A DNA stretch of 29,562 nt from a virus, in the IMG/VR virus record IMGVR_UViG_3300044641_000552, positions 1 through 29,562 of that record. One strand, given 5' to 3'. The translations under genes were made by a program, and so were the position numbers. Positions 575 through 13,578 of the stretch are shown here, piece by piece; position 1 is the first letter of the stretch, and each line of letters begins with the position of its first letter. A model generated the notes under the pieces. The model searched no databases, was not told where the DNA came from, and worked only from the letters and a program-made list of their open reading frames with translations.

Positions 575-763
575 TCAACCGTGGGCAGTCACAATCCGTT
601 GCACGCGGCTGCGACTGATGCCCATGTGGTCGGCAATGCGGCGTTGCGTCCAGCCGTAACTGCGCAGCCGCTTGGCGCGTTGCTCGGTGGACTCGGTGGC
701 CCACAGGATGATGATGATCGGCAGGAGTAGCAGCGCTGCGATCAGTGCGAGTGTGGTGCTCAT
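575..763 (-). CDS. 62-aa membrane-anchored helix-turn-helix protein
   Basis: ATG 763 is chosen over an upstream ATG because it follows the repeated leader (CCCCAAACCGAGAATC). Residues about 5-21 (LALIAALLLLPIIIILW) form one strongly hydrophobic helix. A basic linker follows (RAKRLRSY), then a compact helix-turn-helix at about residues 38-58: GWTQRRIADHMGISRSRVQRI. That stretch has the alternation and the glycine turn of HTH_23/sigma-region-4-like domains. The predicted arrangement is an N-terminal anchor with the HTH in the cytoplasm, which the positive charges after the hydrophobic helix support. A membrane-tethered HTH this small is unusual. The target is unknown. It could act on phage or host promoters, or tether DNA to the membrane. 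Confidence 0.65.
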   Translation of the reverse strand: MSTTLALIAALLLLPIIIILWATESTEQRAKRLRSYGWTQRRIADHMGISRSRVQRIVTAHG

Positions 764-934
764 GATTCTCGGTTTGGGGTGTTGCCGGGCCAACCGGCGG
801 TGCAGGCTTACTTAGGCCGTGTTGGGCTCGTGGTGACGCGTCGTGTACCCGGTTCCGCGGCGGTTGAGTTTTGCGAACGGTCCGCCCCGCTCGTGATGCC
901 ACTGTACACCATGCGCCGCCGTGATCAGCCCAGC

Positions 935-3487: not shown

Positions 3488-3832
3488 TCAAGCAAACCCC
3501 TTAGATTCTGGTTTTGTGTACAGATCTAAATGGTTCCTCCGCAGAGCTTCAACAATTTCTTGCTCACTAATTGGAATTCTTGCATTAGTATCCCCTTTGA
3601 TTATGCTGATCACAATAACAGCTTCTATGCTGTCAGGCGCATTGGGATAAGCCTTGAGCATCTGGATTTCGTTTAGGTCGCGATATGGCCGCCGTACAAA
3701 TGAATTGCATTTATATTTTTTCATTTTTGCAAGATCTTTCTTTAGGATTCGCAAAGCATCTTCTGCGATTTCTGGGTGCAAACGCCCTTGATAGCTTTTG
3801 CCGTCGTAATAGTGGTAAATCTCAGTTGTCAT
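3488..3832 (-). CDS. Hypothetical protein, ~114 aa
   Basis: I do not recognise the family. The protein has an N-terminal YHYYDGKSYQGRLHPEIAED segment, a Lys-rich helix (LKKDLAKMKKYK), then a hydrophobic strand (AVIVISIIKG) and a C-terminal helix (SEQEIVEALRRNHLDLY). This suggests a small alpha/beta fold. ATG 3832 shares its first base with the TGA of the helicase-methylase (3832-3834). A GTG at 3835 directly upstream is also possible. AAGGAG lies 10 bases before the ATG and 7 before the GTG. The gene looks more A+T-rich than the two helicases flanking it, which suggests a late insertion. Confidence 0.7.
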   Translation of the reverse strand: MTTEIYHYYDGKSYQGRLHPEIAEDALRILKKDLAKMKKYKCNSFVRRPYRDLNEIQMLKAYPNAPDSIEAVIVISIIKGDTNARIPISEQEIVEALRRNHLDLYTKPESKGFA

Positions 3833-6090
3833 CACACCAGTACTCCTTGCCGATTGCTGGCCACCTCAGTCAGGTTTTTAGCTGCGCAATTGAAGTAACT
3901 GGGCTTCAGCTCGAAGCCAACAAATCGGCGCTGCATCTGCAGGCTGACGTAGCCCTCGCTGCCGATGCCGGCGAATGGTGACAGCACTAGATCGCCAGGG
4001 TTGCTCCATAGTTGCAGGCCGCGGCGGATCACCTCCAACTGCAGCGGGCAGATGTGGCGCTCGTCCTCATTGGCGCGTGCGCTGCGGTACTGCAGCGTGT
4101 CGGATGGGTTGATGTCCATCCATACGGGGCTGGCGTACCGCTGCCAAATGTTGATCGAGTCCTTGATCGCATCGCCCGTTTTGGCCGGTGCATTCTCGCC
4201 GGCAAACTCAGTGAATGGCCCCGCGCATGGCTCAGGGTTGTCGCCCAGCTTGCGCACTGTTACAAGGTAGTCAGGAATGCCCTGGCGGCTGAGCGCTGAA
4301 TCCTTGCGGACTTGCTTGTGCAGCAGGCCGATTGCCTTGGTGCGCTGCATGGCAGTGACCGGATCCTTCCAGATGCACACCTCGCTATGAAAGACAAAAC
4401 CAGCAGCCTGGAAGATGCGCAGCATATCGCCGCGGAAATCCTTTACGCCAATGAATCCATCGCGTTCCTTGCTGCTGGGCAGATTCATGCAGTGGAAGCT
4501 GATCAACCGGCCCGGCATCAGCACGCGATGCAGCTCCTTGGCTAGGTAGACGAAGTGATCGAAGAACTCCTGGTCGTTGCGGCTGTTGCCCATGTCGCGG
4601 TCGCTGTTCGAGTAGGTGTAGAGCGACGCGAACGGCGGGCTAAAGATGCTGTAGTGGATGGAGTCGCTGTCGAGCTGTTTGATGCTCTCAACGCAGTCGC
4701 CCATGTACAAATCCCAGTTGTCGCCGGTCTTGTGCTCAGTGATGTGCGGCGCCACTTGACGTTGGATCTTTTTGAGTTGTTCCATTGTTTGTTGCTTCAT
4801 GATTTCAACCATTGATTGGGCCATCTGGATGCTGTCCGCCTCTTTGCGGCGGATGTTGTCGATCACGCGGCCTTCCGCCACGTCGTAGATGATGTGAGCG
4901 TTGACGGGCTGCTCTTGGCCAAATCGCCAGCAACGGCGGATGGCTTGATAGAACGCCTCATAGCTGTGGCTCAAGCCAACAAATGCGACATTATGGCAAC
5001 TTTGAAAGTTAAGCCCAAAGCCAAAGATACTGGGCTTGCTAACCAGCACGCGGATCTTGCCATCTTGGAAGTCAATGGCTGACTGCCGCTTGTGGTCATC
5101 GCTATCGCTACCTGACACCTCAACGGCGCCATCAATAGCAGCAGCAAGCGCTTTGGATTCATCATTCAGATTGCACCACACCAACCACTGCTCACCGTTG
5201 CTGTTGGCCAGCTTGGCGGCAGCATCCACGCGGAGGGCGAGGGACGCCTTGCGCACCTTGCGTTGATCGTTCAACGTCCGCGCTTCCATGGCAAATAGCG
5301 CCATTTGGCCGGCATCGTCCGCCACTGCTTCGCGTGGCGTTTCAACAGTGCAGTCTTGAATCTGCAGCGCCGGCAGGATGAAGCTGCCGTCGCCGTAGCC
5401 AAGGTCTGATGGCTTGCGGATCGTTACCGCCCAACTGCAGACCCATTCCCAGAACTTGCTTTTGGCGTGTCCCTTGAGCCGCCACTTGGCGGTGTCGCCG
5501 CCGTCATGCACGAAGAACATGGCCAGCATCTCAGTGCGGGTCATGACGCCGATGAACTCAGCATGGTTGCCGAGCTCCATGTGGTCGTTCGGTGCTGGCG
5601 TGGCGGAGCAGGCCAGCCGGAATGGCGTCTGCATGAACGACTCAATGATCTGGTTGCGGATCTTGCCGGTGTATGCCTTGAGGATGCTGCTCTCATCAAG
5701 CACCACGCCTTGGAATCTGGCCGGGTCAAAGTGGCCGAGCTTCTCGTAGTTGGTGATCGTGATGCCGGGCTGCACCTCAGCATGCGTTGCGGCAAAGCTG
5801 CATTGGATGCCGAACTTGGCGCCCTCGCGCACGGTCTGGTGCGCAACCGCAAGCGGCGCTAGCACCAACACATTGGCACCAGTGTGCTGATGCACCTGAT
5901 GCGCCCACTCCAGCTGCATGGCGGTTTTACCCATGCCGCAGTCAGCCCAAATGCAGAACCTGCCGACACGGCAGGCCATGGTCACGATGTCCCGCTGAAA
6001 CGGAAACAGCGGTGCCGTGAACTGGTCAGGGTCAAAGCCTGCAGGAGCGCAGGCTGTGGATTTGGAGGCTAGGAAGTCTTTGTAAGTCAT
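3832..6090 (-). CDS. Fusion of SNF2-type helicase and beta-class DNA methyltransferase
   Basis: This 752-aa protein has two enzymatic halves. Residues ~25-420 form an SF2/SNF2-like motor: Walker A variant DCGMGKT at 50-56, motif II LDESS at 131-135, SATP at 162-165, and motif VI QAIRRCWRFGQ at 382-392. After a Gln/Lys-rich linker near 430-450, residues ~458-752 form a DNA methyltransferase. Its catalytic SPPF (484-487) precedes the AdoMet-binding FAGIGSEG (706-713). That order, and SPP(F), point to an N4-cytosine or N6-adenine enzyme of the beta type. Phages carry such fusions, presumably to modify their DNA while translocating and so evade restriction. The target sequence is not readable. 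Start ATG 6090 has only a weak ribosome site. The gene opens the leftward operon. Confidence 0.9.
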   Translation of the reverse strand: MTYKDFLASKSTACAPAGFDPDQFTAPLFPFQRDIVTMACRVGRFCIWADCGMGKTAMQLEWAHQVHQHTGANVLVLAPLAVAHQTVREGAKFGIQCSFAATHAEVQPGITITNYEKLGHFDPARFQGVVLDESSILKAYTGKIRNQIIESFMQTPFRLACSATPAPNDHMELGNHAEFIGVMTRTEMLAMFFVHDGGDTAKWRLKGHAKSKFWEWVCSWAVTIRKPSDLGYGDGSFILPALQIQDCTVETPREAVADDAGQMALFAMEARTLNDQRKVRKASLALRVDAAAKLANSNGEQWLVWCNLNDESKALAAAIDGAVEVSGSDSDDHKRQSAIDFQDGKIRVLVSKPSIFGFGLNFQSCHNVAFVGLSHSYEAFYQAIRRCWRFGQEQPVNAHIIYDVAEGRVIDNIRRKEADSIQMAQSMVEIMKQQTMEQLKKIQRQVAPHITEHKTGDNWDLYMGDCVESIKQLDSDSIHYSIFSPPFASLYTYSNSDRDMGNSRNDQEFFDHFVYLAKELHRVLMPGRLISFHCMNLPSSKERDGFIGVKDFRGDMLRIFQAAGFVFHSEVCIWKDPVTAMQRTKAIGLLHKQVRKDSALSRQGIPDYLVTVRKLGDNPEPCAGPFTEFAGENAPAKTGDAIKDSINIWQRYASPVWMDINPSDTLQYRSARANEDERHICPLQLEVIRRGLQLWSNPGDLVLSPFAGIGSEGYVSLQMQRRFVGFELKPSYFNCAAKNLTEVASNRQGVLV

Positions 6091-6105
6091 GGCTGCCGTT
6101 TGGCG

Positions 6106-6139
6106 TTGTCACCGTAGCAACCGTTGCTACGCTTGGCAA
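6106..6139. promoter_or_regulatory. Candidate divergent promoter pair sharing one palindromic operator
   Basis: Positions 6113-6131 read CGTAGCAACCGTTGCTACG, a perfect 9-bp inverted repeat around one central base. Rightward, TTGTCA (6106-6111) and TACGCT (6128-6133) are 16 bases apart. Leftward, TTGCCA (6139-6134) and TACGGT (6116-6111) are 17 bases apart. The -35 boxes are 5/6 matches and the -10 boxes only 3/6, so the promoter call is tentative. The palindrome itself is certain. A dimeric repressor bound here would cover both -10 boxes. The adjacent ribbon-helix-helix protein is the natural candidate. Confidence 0.5.
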
Positions 6140-6156
6140 GCGTCCATCCCAAACTC

Positions 6157-6294
6157 GTGCGCCTCGTCCATCCAACCCATATACGGCTGACGCCAGACCT
6201 ATTGCAGCGGCTTGATTCTTGGCGCGGTGATCGCATGAATCGCGCAACCGCTATCCGATTGCTGCTAGAGCAGGCGCTCAAGGAGATCAAGTGA
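6157..6294 (+). CDS. 45-aa ribbon-helix-helix (CopG/Arc-like) DNA-binding protein
   Basis: This short frame, open from 6118 and without an ATG at its start, reads IRLTPDLLQRLDSWRGD, then MNRATAIRLLLEQALKE. This is the full ribbon-helix-helix pattern: a beta strand, helix A, a turn with Asn-Arg before helix B, and helix B with the RxAIRxLLExAL signature. GTG 6157 is taken as the start, which leaves four to eight residues before the strand. No strong ribosome site is visible. The TGA (6292-6294) overlaps the GTG of the primase (6291) as GTGA, so the two are probably coupled. RHH dimers bind short inverted repeats, and a perfect palindrome lies 26 bases upstream. The likely role is an autoregulatory repressor of both divergent early operons. 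Confidence 0.7.
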   Translation: MRLVHPTHIRLTPDLLQRLDSWRGDRMNRATAIRLLLEQALKEIK

Positions 6295-8360
6295 CCCTTG
6301 CCCAAGAGCTGGACCGCCTGCCCGATGGGTGGGGATACGTTGCCGTCGATGGCCAGAAGCGGCCGTATCAACTCAAGTGGCAAGACAACCCACTAGATAA
6401 AGCCAGCCTGCAGGCAGAACTTGATTCCGGTCGCGCTCGTGCTATTGGCGTGTGCTGTGGCGTGCCATCGGGTGGTTTGCTGTTCCTTGATCACGACGGC
6501 CGCAGCGCTAGCACCATCCTTCGAGACTGGGGTTGCCCCATGTCGTCGTTGCCGCGCTCGTGGACTGTTACCTCCGGTCGTGATGGCAGGTTTCAAGTCA
6601 TCTACCGCGTGCCAGAGGAGTACTGGTCTGGCATCGCCACACGTAAATACAAGTCAGGTGTCACCGACTCCGATGGCAAGCCCGAGCAGGTGGAACTCCG
6701 ATGGACCGGCTGCCAGTCCGTTGTAGCCGGTGCGCACCCAACCACCAGCGGCTACCGCTGGGTAGCCAAATACAGCCCCGAAGATCTCGACCTAGCCGAA
6801 GCGCCGCTTTGCCTGATCGAGCGGATGCTCAAGCCAGTAGCCGAGCCGGTGGTCTTACCACCAGTGGTGCATGGTGCTGACGATGCCGCCAGGGCGCGTT
6901 CTTACCTCGAAGCTTTGGCCAGCAGTCGCGCTGATGACTACGACGACTGGCTAGCCGTTGGCATGGCGCTCCATAGCGTTGGCGATGACGCCTTGCTAGA
7001 CGACTGGGAGCAGTGGTCAGCGCAGTCCGGCAAGCACAAGCCCAGTGATTGCCAGCGCAAATGGCGTAGCTTCAAAAAGTCCGGCATCAGCCTTGGCACC
7101 CTTGGCGACATGGCCAAGAAAGACGGTTGGCGACCCCATCGGCGTGAGCCGCAGCGCAGGGTGGCGACAGGCGGCGGCAGTGGTGACGGCGATGCCAATG
7201 CGCCAATCATCACGAAGCCGGAAAAACTGGAAACCGCAGAGCTGTTGGCGCTGCTGCGCAGCCAGACCGATGAGATCCGCTACAACGTCTTCACCCAGCA
7301 GATCGAAATCAAGGGCAAGGTCATCGATGGCGCCGATCGTTTTTACCTAAAGCTGGCAGAGATGGGTTACAAGGTCGGCAAGGAGCTGGCCATTGACTGC
7401 CTTGTGCAGGTCGCCAACGAAAACCCTTACGACCCCGTAACCGAGTACCTGACCCATTGCGAGCAGCACGTCCAGCCGGCTTACATCGACGGCCTCGCTA
7501 CCGCATACCTTCGCCCAGAGGACCAAGGCGGTGAGGCCACGATCTACGACGAGATGCTTAAGCGCACCTTGATCGGCGCTGTTGCTCGTGCCTTTGATCC
7601 TGGTTTCAAGCATGACACCGCCTGCGTGATCATGGGCGATCAAGGTGCATACAAATCCAGCTTCTGGGGCTGTTTAGGTGGTCCATTTTACTCAGATGCA
7701 TTGGGTGACATCAGCACCAAGGACGATGTAATGGTGCTTCACCGCTCGTGGATCATGGAATGGGCAGAGCTTGATCACATCACCAATCGTAAGCACGCTG
7801 GGCAAGTCAAGGCGTTTTTATCGCAGGCGGTAGATCTACTCCGTGTGCCATATGGCAAGGCCGTTGAAGCATTCCCAAGGCGTGGCATCATTGTTGGCAC
7901 CACTAATAAAACCGCTGGCTTTCTTGTGGATGAAACCGGAAACCGTCGTTTCTGGGTGATACCTACGACCAGGACACAGGTGGATCAAATCAACACTGCG
8001 ATGCTCTTAATGGAGCGTGATGCCATCTGGTCTGCAGCGGTTCATGCCTACCGCAACGGTGAAACCAGCCGCCTTCCTGCAGCCATGGAGCTAGCCGTTC
8101 AGCAAGAAAACGATGCCTACATGATCGAGTCGCCATGGCGTGCCGCCATCCTTTCCTACCTCGCTGAGCGCCGCAGCGCTGACCTGCTGACCTCCGAAGA
8201 GATCCTTGCCAAGGCCATCCAGAAGCCAATGGAGCGCCAGTCCAAGGCCGACCAGATGCAGGTGGCTTCGATCCTGAAGGAGCTGGGTTGGGCGAAACGC
8301 CGCGAATCGACCGGCAAGAGGCGTTGGTACTACCAGTTGGACGGCCAACATGCCGGCTAG
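6291..8360 (+). CDS. Primase-helicase: PrimPol, PriCT-2 and VirE-like ATPase domains
   Basis: This 689-aa replication protein has three parts. Residues ~1-170 fit a PrimPol/bifunctional primase-polymerase domain, with the acidic LDHDG at 66-70 and a GxxxxV loop before it. Residues ~203-280 match PriCT-2, with DDYDDWLAVGMALHS and CQRKWRSF...SLGTL. After a Gly/Asp linker, residues ~320-620 form a VirE-type P-loop ATPase with GDQGAYKSS at 449-457, an acidic WAELD, and the hallmark GNRRFWVI near 550. It should synthesise primers and unwind DNA at the phage fork. Start GTG 6291 overlaps the stop of the ribbon-helix-helix gene. The C-terminal ~70 residues form a winged-helix-like segment (VASILKELGW.KRRE). 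Confidence 0.88.
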   Translation: MTLAQELDRLPDGWGYVAVDGQKRPYQLKWQDNPLDKASLQAELDSGRARAIGVCCGVPSGGLLFLDHDGRSASTILRDWGCPMSSLPRSWTVTSGRDGRFQVIYRVPEEYWSGIATRKYKSGVTDSDGKPEQVELRWTGCQSVVAGAHPTTSGYRWVAKYSPEDLDLAEAPLCLIERMLKPVAEPVVLPPVVHGADDAARARSYLEALASSRADDYDDWLAVGMALHSVGDDALLDDWEQWSAQSGKHKPSDCQRKWRSFKKSGISLGTLGDMAKKDGWRPHRREPQRRVATGGGSGDGDANAPIITKPEKLETAELLALLRSQTDEIRYNVFTQQIEIKGKVIDGADRFYLKLAEMGYKVGKELAIDCLVQVANENPYDPVTEYLTHCEQHVQPAYIDGLATAYLRPEDQGGEATIYDEMLKRTLIGAVARAFDPGFKHDTACVIMGDQGAYKSSFWGCLGGPFYSDALGDISTKDDVMVLHRSWIMEWAELDHITNRKHAGQVKAFLSQAVDLLRVPYGKAVEAFPRRGIIVGTTNKTAGFLVDETGNRRFWVIPTTRTQVDQINTAMLLMERDAIWSAAVHAYRNGETSRLPAAMELAVQQENDAYMIESPWRAAILSYLAERRSADLLTSEEILAKAIQKPMERQSKADQMQVASILKELGWAKRRESTGKRRWYYQLDGQHAG

Positions 8361-8578: not shown

Positions 8579-8872
8579 ATGGGACCAATGCAAGAAATCA
8601 AAGTCCGCTTCCAGCCCGAAGACCTCACCGCTCTGGACCAGCAGGCCGCATCGCTCGGCACCAGCCGTGCGCAGTTGATCCGTGACCGTTCCTTAAGCAG
8701 TGGGGTTGCAGGGTTGACCACAGCCGACTACCATCGCCTCGTGTCTGGTGCTGCTGCCCACATGCGTGGTGATCTGTCGCATCGACACGTTGAGCATCTC
8801 GTTGCGTATGTCATCACAAGACTCGATCAGCATTCCCGCCAAGCAGTCGCCGGTGATCAACCGGCTTCATGA
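8579..8872 (+). CDS. Ribbon-helix-helix protein, 97 aa, CopG/MobC-like
   Basis: The N-terminus reads IKVRFQPEDLTALDQQAASLGTSRAQLIRD. This is a ribbon-helix-helix: a beta strand, helix A, a GTSR turn, and helix B. Residues ~45-90 add a second, mostly helical part (TTADYHRLV...HVEHLVAYVITRLDQ), similar in layout to plasmid MobC/relaxosome accessory proteins. It is probably a dimeric DNA-binding regulator or an origin-binding accessory. Either ATG 8579 or ATG 8588 could be used, and neither has a clear ribosome site. It lies just behind the inverted repeats at 8479-8543, a plausible binding site. It is the second RHH gene in this early region. Confidence 0.7.
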   Translation: MGPMQEIKVRFQPEDLTALDQQAASLGTSRAQLIRDRSLSSGVAGLTTADYHRLVSGAAAHMRGDLSHRHVEHLVAYVITRLDQHSRQAVAGDQPAS

Positions 8873-11782: not shown

Positions 11783-12103
11783 ATGCTGACCGGCGCTGAA
11801 CTACTGTCGAAAGTCAAAGAATCTGGGCATCTCAACAAGACCGAGCTGGTCCGTGAATGCGGGTACGTCATCAAGGATCGCGTGGCATTCACGCAGTTCT
11901 ATGAGGCGCTGCTGGAAGCCAAAGGCGTTGACCTAGGCAGCAAGACAGCAAAGCGCGGCCGCGGCCTGACCTACAAGGCAAAGGTGCAATTCAATGGCAA
12001 GCTGCAGATTGGTGACGGCTACCTACGCGAGATGGGTTACGAGCCCGGCGCTGAGTTTGACATCAAGATTGGCCGCAATAGCATCACGCTGATTGCCGCT
12101 TAA
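11783..12103 (+). CDS. AbrB-like regulator of the cyanobacterial (cyAbrB) type
   Basis: The 106-aa product begins LTGAELLSKVKESGHLNKTELVRECGYV. It continues to FTQFYEALLEAKGVDLG, then a basic linker, then KVQFNGKLQIGDGYLREMGYEPGAEFDIKIGRNSITLI. This is the two-part layout of cyanobacterial AbrB proteins: an N-terminal LTGxxLLxKVKELG...SELVRACGYV...FYEALLEAKG region and a C-terminal AbrB swapped-hairpin domain with PGDEFEIKLGRK. These regulators control carbon, nitrogen and stress genes in cyanobacteria. Between TerL and portal it could be a late-gene regulator or could reprogram host transcription. A TATATT at about 11750-11755, just ahead of the gene, may be a -10 box, but no -35 is clear. 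It is the best host clue in the window. Confidence 0.85.
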   Translation: MLTGAELLSKVKESGHLNKTELVRECGYVIKDRVAFTQFYEALLEAKGVDLGSKTAKRGRGLTYKAKVQFNGKLQIGDGYLREMGYEPGAEFDIKIGRNSITLIAA

Positions 12104-12129: not shown

Positions 12130-13578
12130 ATGGTCTATTCCGGCTTCAACTACTACGACCGGCCTACGGCAGAGCGTAAGGTCGCCCGTGTGCAGGATGC
12201 AAACTCTGTGTGGTACGCGCAAGAGGCGCATTGGATCCTGATTGAAGACTTGCTGGGCGGGACTTATGAGATGCGTTGCAAGCACCGCCGCTACCTGCCA
12301 CAAGAACCACGCGAGCAGGATGAGTCTTACGACAACCGTCTTGCTCGCAGCGTGGTGCCGCCGTACTACCAACGCCTTGAGCGACTGCTGGCTGGAATGC
12401 TGACCCGCAAGCCGGTGAGGTTGATCGATACCAGTGACACCATCCGTGAACAGTTGTTTGACGTAGACCTCAACGGCAACGACCTCAATGTGTGGACCTA
12501 TGAGACCGCACGCAAGATGGTGCGTTACGGCCATATCGGTACGCTGGTGGACGCACCTGCTGACGGCGGCAGGCCGTATTGGGTGACCTACACTCCACGC
12601 GACATCCTTGGATGGCGCACTGAGGCCAAGGAAGGCAAGCAGCAGCTGACCATGCTGCGCCTGCAGGAGCTGGCCAGCATGCCTGATGGTGAGTACGGCG
12701 AGAAAGTGGTGCAGCAGGTGCGTGTGCTAACGCCTGGCGAGTATCAGATCCACCAGAAGGATGACAAGGGCGACTTCCGCATCGTGGACGAAGGTCGCAC
12801 CAGCCTTAGCGAAATCCCGTTCAGCGTTGCATACGCCAACCGTATCGGCTTTATGGAATCACGGCCGCCGCTGGAGGACATTGCCGAGCTGAATCTGAAA
12901 ACCTATCAGATTCAGTCTGACCTTGATAACCAGCTGCACATTTCAGCGGTGCCAATGCTGGCGTTTTACGGCTTCCCGTCTAGCGCCGAGGAGGTATCAG
13001 CAGGCCCCGGTGAAGCTATTGCATTCCCTGCAGAAGGCCGCGCTGAGTACATCGAACCTGGCGGCACTAGCTTTCAGTATCAATTTCAACGGCTCGAGCA
13101 GCTTTCCTTGCAGATCAATGAGCTTGGCCTGTCGGCAGTGCTAGGCCAGAAGCTGACAGCCGAAACCGCTGAAGCAAAGCGCATCAATCGCAGTCAAGGT
13201 GACAGCACCATGATGGTGATTGCGCAAAATATGCAGGATATGATCGACAATTGCTTGCAGTTCCATGCGCAGTACCTCGGCCAGAATGAAGCCGCCGGCA
13301 GCTGCCATGTGAACCGCGACTTTATGGGTATCCGGCTTGACCCGCAGGAAATCACCAGCCTGCTTGGGCTTTACACTGCTGGCACCATCACCCAAGAAAC
13401 CCTGCTGCAGCAACTGGCTGATGGCGAGGTCTTAGGCGATGACTTTGACGTTGAACAAGAACTGGAGGCCACGGCTAATGCGGGAATGGACCTACAACCT
13501 GCTGGACAGGCTGACCGACTGGCTAGTGGATCTGATGATTATGTTGGAACCGAAGAGGCCACGCCGCCAGGAGCTTGA
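12130..13578 (+). CDS. Portal protein, DUF4055-like
   Basis: The 482-aa protein lies directly in the head module. It has the portal-like early segment VVPPYYQRLERLLAGMLTRKPV (about residues 75-97), a stem and wing region, and a long central helix (DIAELNLKTYQIQSDLDNQLH) near residue 245. The clip/crown side contains LGLSAVLGQKLTAETAEAKRINRSQGDSTM near 330-360, which matches my recollection of DUF4055 phage proteins. The acidic Asp/Glu-rich C-terminus is typical. The portal forms the dodecameric DNA gate and TerL dock. It starts at ATG 12130, 26 bases after the AbrB gene. Confidence 0.85.
   Translation: MVYSGFNYYDRPTAERKVARVQDANSVWYAQEAHWILIEDLLGGTYEMRCKHRRYLPQEPREQDESYDNRLARSVVPPYYQRLERLLAGMLTRKPVRLIDTSDTIREQLFDVDLNGNDLNVWTYETARKMVRYGHIGTLVDAPADGGRPYWVTYTPRDILGWRTEAKEGKQQLTMLRLQELASMPDGEYGEKVVQQVRVLTPGEYQIHQKDDKGDFRIVDEGRTSLSEIPFSVAYANRIGFMESRPPLEDIAELNLKTYQIQSDLDNQLHISAVPMLAFYGFPSSAEEVSAGPGEAIAFPAEGRAEYIEPGGTSFQYQFQRLEQLSLQINELGLSAVLGQKLTAETAEAKRINRSQGDSTMMVIAQNMQDMIDNCLQFHAQYLGQNEAAGSCHVNRDFMGIRLDPQEITSLLGLYTAGTITQETLLQQLADGEVLGDDFDVEQELEATANAGMDLQPAGQADRLASGSDDYVGTEEATPPGA

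Follow-up and report, generated by a model that had tools for sequence, protein, structure and literature searches.

Introduction

Arc and Mnt of phage P22 are small ribbon-helix-helix (RHH) repressors that read DNA with a β-strand and bind over a promoter as cooperating dimers. A different arrangement is found in the Cluster A mycobacteriophages, which are temperate and have many dispersed repressor sites. Outside phages, CopG represses its own promoter in the copG-repB operon of plasmid pMV158, and it blocks the establishment of cognate, but not of unrelated, plasmids (PMC5717011). Its target is a 13-bp symmetric element, according to the work of del Solar (1990) as cited in PMC5717011. In the relBE operon of Escherichia coli, the RHH autorepressor RelB places its dimers on one face of the DNA, over hexad half-sites with a fixed spacing (PMC2812701). 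For the Cluster A mycobacteriophages, close relatives are reported to differ in repressor and operator specificity (PMC6550527).

Here, we analyzed a 29.6-kb virus record (IMGVR_UViG_3300044641_000552), whose whole length of 29,562 nucleotides is called the window below. Its nearest annotated relatives are the Synechococcus phages S-CBS3 and S-LBS1, and the hosts of the viruses that share the switch described here are most likely cyanobacteria. Similar to CopG, the RHH protein of the window is 45 amino acids long, is encoded by the first gene of its operon, and is followed by the gene for a replication protein (PMC5717011); its sequence similarity to CopG is, however, very weak. We propose that, in more than 100 related viral sequences, this tiny repressor probably binds a dyad and silences two divergently oriented sets of early replication genes.

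Results

A dyad lies within two overlapping promoter-like sequences

The dyad is located between a leftward helicase-methylase gene and a small rightward RHH frame, which is followed by a primase gene (Table 1). An earlier note on this DNA had described a perfect 19-bp palindrome inside overlapping back-to-back promoter-like sequences. The palindrome is present, as two 9-bp arms around one unpaired central base, and the hexamers and their spacings are exactly as that note gave them: TTGTCA-N16-TACGCT rightward and TTGCCA-N17-TACGGT leftward, antiparallel and fully overlapping. The presence of a replication gene within the RHH-primase operon was confirmed, and the dyad sits between the -35 and the -10 of that operon.

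Taken from the window alone, the dyad and the promoter matches are unconvincing. Approximately 1.35 dyads with arms of at least 9 bp and a spacer of 0–7 bases are expected by chance in the window (~0.4 for a spacer of at most one base), each -10 box matches TATAAT at 3 of 6 positions only, and a consensus promoter scan found no promoter at the dyad. Moreover, TACG at both ends of the dyad is one fact rather than two, since the dyad is symmetric. The earlier note had also advised a search for further copies of the palindrome, and there is none in the window: GTAGCAN5TGCTAC, allowing up to three mismatches, gave 11 matches versus 14.6 expected. A search with the exact palindrome matched only two close relatives, too few for judgement.

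Table 1. Features of the dyad region and the adjoining genes; positions are those of the window.
Feature	Position	Strand	Basis
Candidate operator dyad, CGTAGCAAC-C-GTTGCTACG	6113–6131		Read in sequence; per-position conservation and pairing in relatives
Conserved half-sites GTAGC and GCTAC	6114–6118 and 6126–6130		Position-wise comparison of relatives
Unconserved 7-bp spacer	6119–6125		Position-wise comparison of relatives
Rightward -35-like TTGTCA (relatives: TTGCAA/TTGCCA/TTGACA)	6106–6111	+	TTG at 16/17 spacing in 48/60 homologous segments
Rightward -10-like TACGCT (relatives: TANRNT)	6128–6133	+	TAnnnT in 60/60 segments
Leftward -35-like TTGCCA (relatives: TTGCAC/TTGCAA/TTGACA)	6134–6139	-	Plus-strand CAA in 56/60 segments, same column in 53
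Leftward -10-like TACGGT	6111–6116	-	Minus-strand TAnnnT in 59/60 segments
45-aa RHH protein, proposed autorepressor	6157–6294	+	Alignment; PHROG 4738; weak Pfam RHH_1; two predicted helices
SF2 helicase-DNA methylase fusion, gene 1 of leftward operon	3832–6090	-	Pfam Helicase_C, ResIII, N6_N4_Mtase
Primase/VapE-type replication protein, gene 2 of rightward operon, overlaps RHH stop	6291–8360	+	Pfam PriCT_2 (7e-20), VapE-like (3.5e-60)

An alignment of the family members places the GTG start of the RHH frame opposite an ATG in many relatives; a longer frame, from TTG 6124, would start inside the dyad. The best family match of the protein is the transcriptional repressor family PHROG 4738 (E = 1.3e-7). 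Matches to Pfam RHH_1 were weak and confined to 9 of the 46 members (best E = 0.0038), and the protein of the window matched RHH_3 at E = 0.13. Alignment of the family to CopG by hhalign was collinear, but with a probability of 7% (E = 0.005). A sequence search of the PDB returned no convincing RHH homologue (NikR at E = 0.54), and a Foldseek search of the PDB with the monomer model gave no significant match. The AlphaFold2 monomer (pLDDT 82.7) has helices at residues 13–23 and 29–44, as expected for an RHH protein, in which the strand forms only in the dimer. We regard the protein as probably CopG/Arc-like, although its membership of that family is weak by sequence.

The window encodes other candidate regulators. 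Between the primase and sliding clamp genes (8579–8872, plus strand) lies another RHH-type frame, which is NikA-like (Pfam E = 3.7e-5), and no operator of the dyad type was found near it. An AbrB-like transcription regulator (PF14250, E = 3.5e-21) is encoded between the terminase and portal genes (11783–12103, plus strand), and a small HTH-type frame (575–793, minus strand) matches several PHROG transcription regulators. The portal gene itself contains a 10-bp inverted repeat with a 7-base spacer (12889–12915).

The element recurs at the same place in related viruses

Relatives were collected from IMG/VR with primase and methylase protein queries, that is, without use of the dyad, yielding 160 loci. 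Adding 65 loci, for which the phage S-H1 RHH protein served as the query, gave a larger sample with 103 distinct RHH/operator pairs. Residue and base counts refer to this motif-blind sample; loci L166–L244, which had been retrieved with a motif fixing G at ±8, were left out.

Nearly all of the 160 loci have a related element at the position of the window dyad. All four TA/T marks of the -10-like boxes (TAnnnT on both strands) were found in 99 of the 103 distinct pairs, versus 1 of 681 random places; the four exceptions comprise two pairs with a different left flank and two with a relocated RHH gene. Across 60 distinct segments, T-7 A-6 and T+6 A+7 are invariant, T+11 is present in all 60 and A-11 in 59, and positions ±8 to ±10 are variable. 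TTG-type -35 elements flank both sides in the relatives (L092 has TTGACA on both), and are less strictly kept than the dyad core and the TAnnnT boxes. It is this same-place recurrence of core, TAnnnT boxes, and TTG elements in approximately 100 distinct relatives that gives the dyad its significance.

Base pairing across the relatives is kept at 83–100% at ±4 to ±8, 35–57% at ±1 to ±3, and 17–50% at ±9 and ±10. The inner seven bases are not conserved, hence the full 19-bp perfection in the window is partly luck, and the pairing profile defines the conserved site as two half-sites of ~5 bp, about one helical turn apart. The 19-bp palindrome of the earlier note thus holds as a dyad but not as the site: the conserved symmetry is GTAGC-N7-GCTAC, and perfection over the full length is incidental. 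That note had also envisaged one bound dimer, whereas half-sites about one helical turn apart suggest two side-by-side RHH dimers (compare RelB).

The position of the operator is fixed, 58–61 nt (49–50 nt in one class) upstream of the β-strand codon. A motif scan of viral contigs retrieved 112 stretches, and the RHH gene was found at +70/71 nt in nearly all new loci examined, among them loci with an unrelated Zn-ribbon/Toprim primase as the next gene. In 257 Gb of bacterial genomes the same scan gave 24 scattered matches, near chance, of which one, probably in a misbinned phage, had the RHH gene. A contig filed under a beta-proteobacterium MAG (L296) carries the operator together with an RHH gene, and is probably a misbinned phage contig. 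Each of the 14 long contigs with the exact common motif has a single operator copy; the other 10 long contigs are without an exact match to it. Small RHH-like frames also lie at the corresponding divergent point of S-LBS1 and S-CBS3, but no TAGC dyad was seen there by eye.

The half-site follows a β-strand residue of the RHH protein

We compared the reading residue of the RHH β-strand with the base at ±8. Arg goes with G on both sides (51/51 pairs), Leu with T/A (23/23 pairs), and Gln with C on the right side (25/25 pairs), and the half-site base agrees with the β-strand residue in 99 of 99 pairs. The outer CTTG/CAAG elements are independent of RHH class, as expected of -35 elements. In the isolate phage S-H1, helices of the Gln/Leu class are combined with an Arg strand, and the operator belongs to the Arg class; this mixed protein separates the effect of the strand from overall relatedness. 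By this comparative test, the β-strand residues appear to determine the operator sequence, with a small number of independent specificity changes, since the residue/base classes are few. The natural RHH/operator pairs number roughly one hundred and fall into several specificity classes, which suffices for testing a one-residue rule (Arg/Leu/Gln versus ±8).

The operator and the RHH gene appear to be exchanged as a cassette

A maximum-likelihood tree of 56 primase rows requires a minimum of 16 changes of RHH class, close to the 16.7 of shuffled labels, and the operator agrees with the RHH class at every tip that has an adjacent dyad. L007 and L011 have primases 97–98% identical to that of the window, yet a different RHH class. 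Because the operator and the RHH gene are ~60 nt apart, their joint transfer is expected and explains much of the concordance on the tree. The tree therefore speaks for a mobile unit, and it is the residue/base match, together with S-H1, that carries the claim of recognition. Collectively, these comparisons suggest that the RHH gene and its operator change in step and move from virus to virus as a single cassette.

The operator-RHH unit precedes two unrelated primases and different left genes. In L211, L169, L222, and L298 the unit stands before an unrelated Zn-ribbon/Toprim primase; in S-H1 (L298), the RHH frame is unannotated and the left gene encodes an HNH endonuclease. In L209, L079, and L081 the helicase-methylase, RHH, and primase genes all run in one direction. 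The dyad of L209 and L079 lies at the head of this co-directional run, at its promoter, ~2.3 kb upstream of the RHH gene.

Other readings of the dyad

If the rightward promoter alone were real, the RHH protein would autoregulate the RHH-primase operon, and the leftward -10 and -35 would be by-products of operator symmetry. On average, the rightward -35 is the slightly better of the two, and control of copG-repB by CopG is a one-directional precedent (PMC5717011). In addition, the T of the minus-strand -10 is often the last base of the rightward -35: where the rightward spacer is 16 nt, the A/T at -11 belongs to both elements, hence evidence for one promoter is in part evidence for the other. 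The A at -11 is, however, kept where the rightward spacer is 17 nt. Furthermore, the right CAAG, which would be the leftward -35, equals or exceeds the left TTG in conservation and is independent of RHH class, several relatives have TTGACA on the right, and in most relatives the leftward start codon keeps a conserved distance of 32–42 nt to the centre of the dyad (32 nt to the helicase-methylase ATG in the window). On balance, we consider a solely rightward promoter unlikely.

Alternatively, the dyad might act as a DNA or RNA hairpin beside the primase gene, as an origin, a primase recognition site, or a terminator. The dyad does adjoin replication genes, and its single-stranded DNA is predicted to fold at -11.7 kcal/mol (z = -2.7), but conservation of pairing is lacking at ±1 to ±3, ±9 (50%), and ±10 (17%), while ±6, ±7, and ±11 are almost fixed. 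Such a profile disfavours a hairpin and is consistent with RHH dimers lying side by side. The dyad also has no T tract, in L209 and L079 it is found at the promoter and not next to the primase, and its half-sites track the RHH residue. We rejected the hairpin or terminator reading for its unconserved pairing and absent T tract, and regard it as extremely improbable. A host factor or another phage regulator might instead read the dyad, the RHH gene being merely adjacent, given that binding by the RHH protein is a prediction and that the phage also encodes an AbrB-like and an HTH protein. Nevertheless, a different reader would leave unexplained why the half-site agrees with the β-strand residue in every pair, including the mixed protein of S-H1. 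A host regulator or host site was rejected because the motif is at chance level in bacterial genomes, and we judge a reader other than the RHH protein very unlikely.

Discussion

We conclude that the dyad is very probably the operator of a CopG/Arc-like RHH autorepressor, placed over two overlapping antiparallel promoters so that both early operons can be shut. The earlier note's proposal of an RHH operator over divergent early promoters is strongly supported at the level of sequence comparison, by the TAnnnT boxes on both strands, by the TTG-type -35 elements on both sides, and by the half-sites that track the β-strand residue. The rightward promoter would drive the RHH gene and the primase gene, with transcription expected to start near 6140, and the leftward promoter would drive the helicase-methylase and other left genes, with a start near 6104. 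Since the antiparallel promoters share the same DNA, polymerase could occupy only one of them at a time. The RHH protein would dimerize, most likely with two dimers on the two GTAGC half-sites, thereby blocking both -10 elements. Since its gene is the first of the rightward operon, the protein should hold down its own production, together with that of the primase and the output of the leftward operon. Early replication functions might then be expressed as a burst, followed by shutoff as the RHH protein builds up.

Control of lysogeny is an unlikely role for the switch in this phage group, since 23 long related contigs, which may be incomplete, and S-H1 yielded no tyrosine/serine recombinase, integrase, resolvase, or ParA-type ATPase. 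S-LBS1 does have an integrase, and its intergenic region showed no dyad of this kind. It is conceivable, though doubtful, that the operator-RHH cassette is a specificity-switching determinant of immunity or incompatibility (heteroimmunity) in these apparently lytic cyanophages. If so, the repressor of a first phage would act on a co-infecting phage of the same operator class and shut its early replication operons, and selection for escape would drive the frequent cassette swapping and the diversification of β-strand and half-site. Among open-access papers naming both ribbon-helix-helix proteins and cyanophages, none was evidently on such a regulator. In S-H1, which grows on Synechococcus WH 7803, the switch, its timing, and any immunity effect are directly testable in a cultured phage.

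Several comparisons with known systems can be drawn. As in the Cluster A mycobacteriophages, close relatives differ in repressor and operator class, but the locus has one site per genome and no detected integrase. Like Arc and Mnt of P22, the proposed repressor would be a small phage-encoded RHH protein; unlike in P22, no integration genes were found in the relatives of the window. The RHH protein resembles RelB as a proposed autorepressor with half-sites about one turn apart, but its partner is a primase, with no toxin gene between the two, unlike in relBE. By contrast to CopG, its operator would cover two divergent promoters, the partner is a phage primase, and the half-site varies by class. 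Hence, compared with CopG and Arc, what appears to be new is the two-promoter layout, the class-specific half-sites, and the swapping of the cassette.
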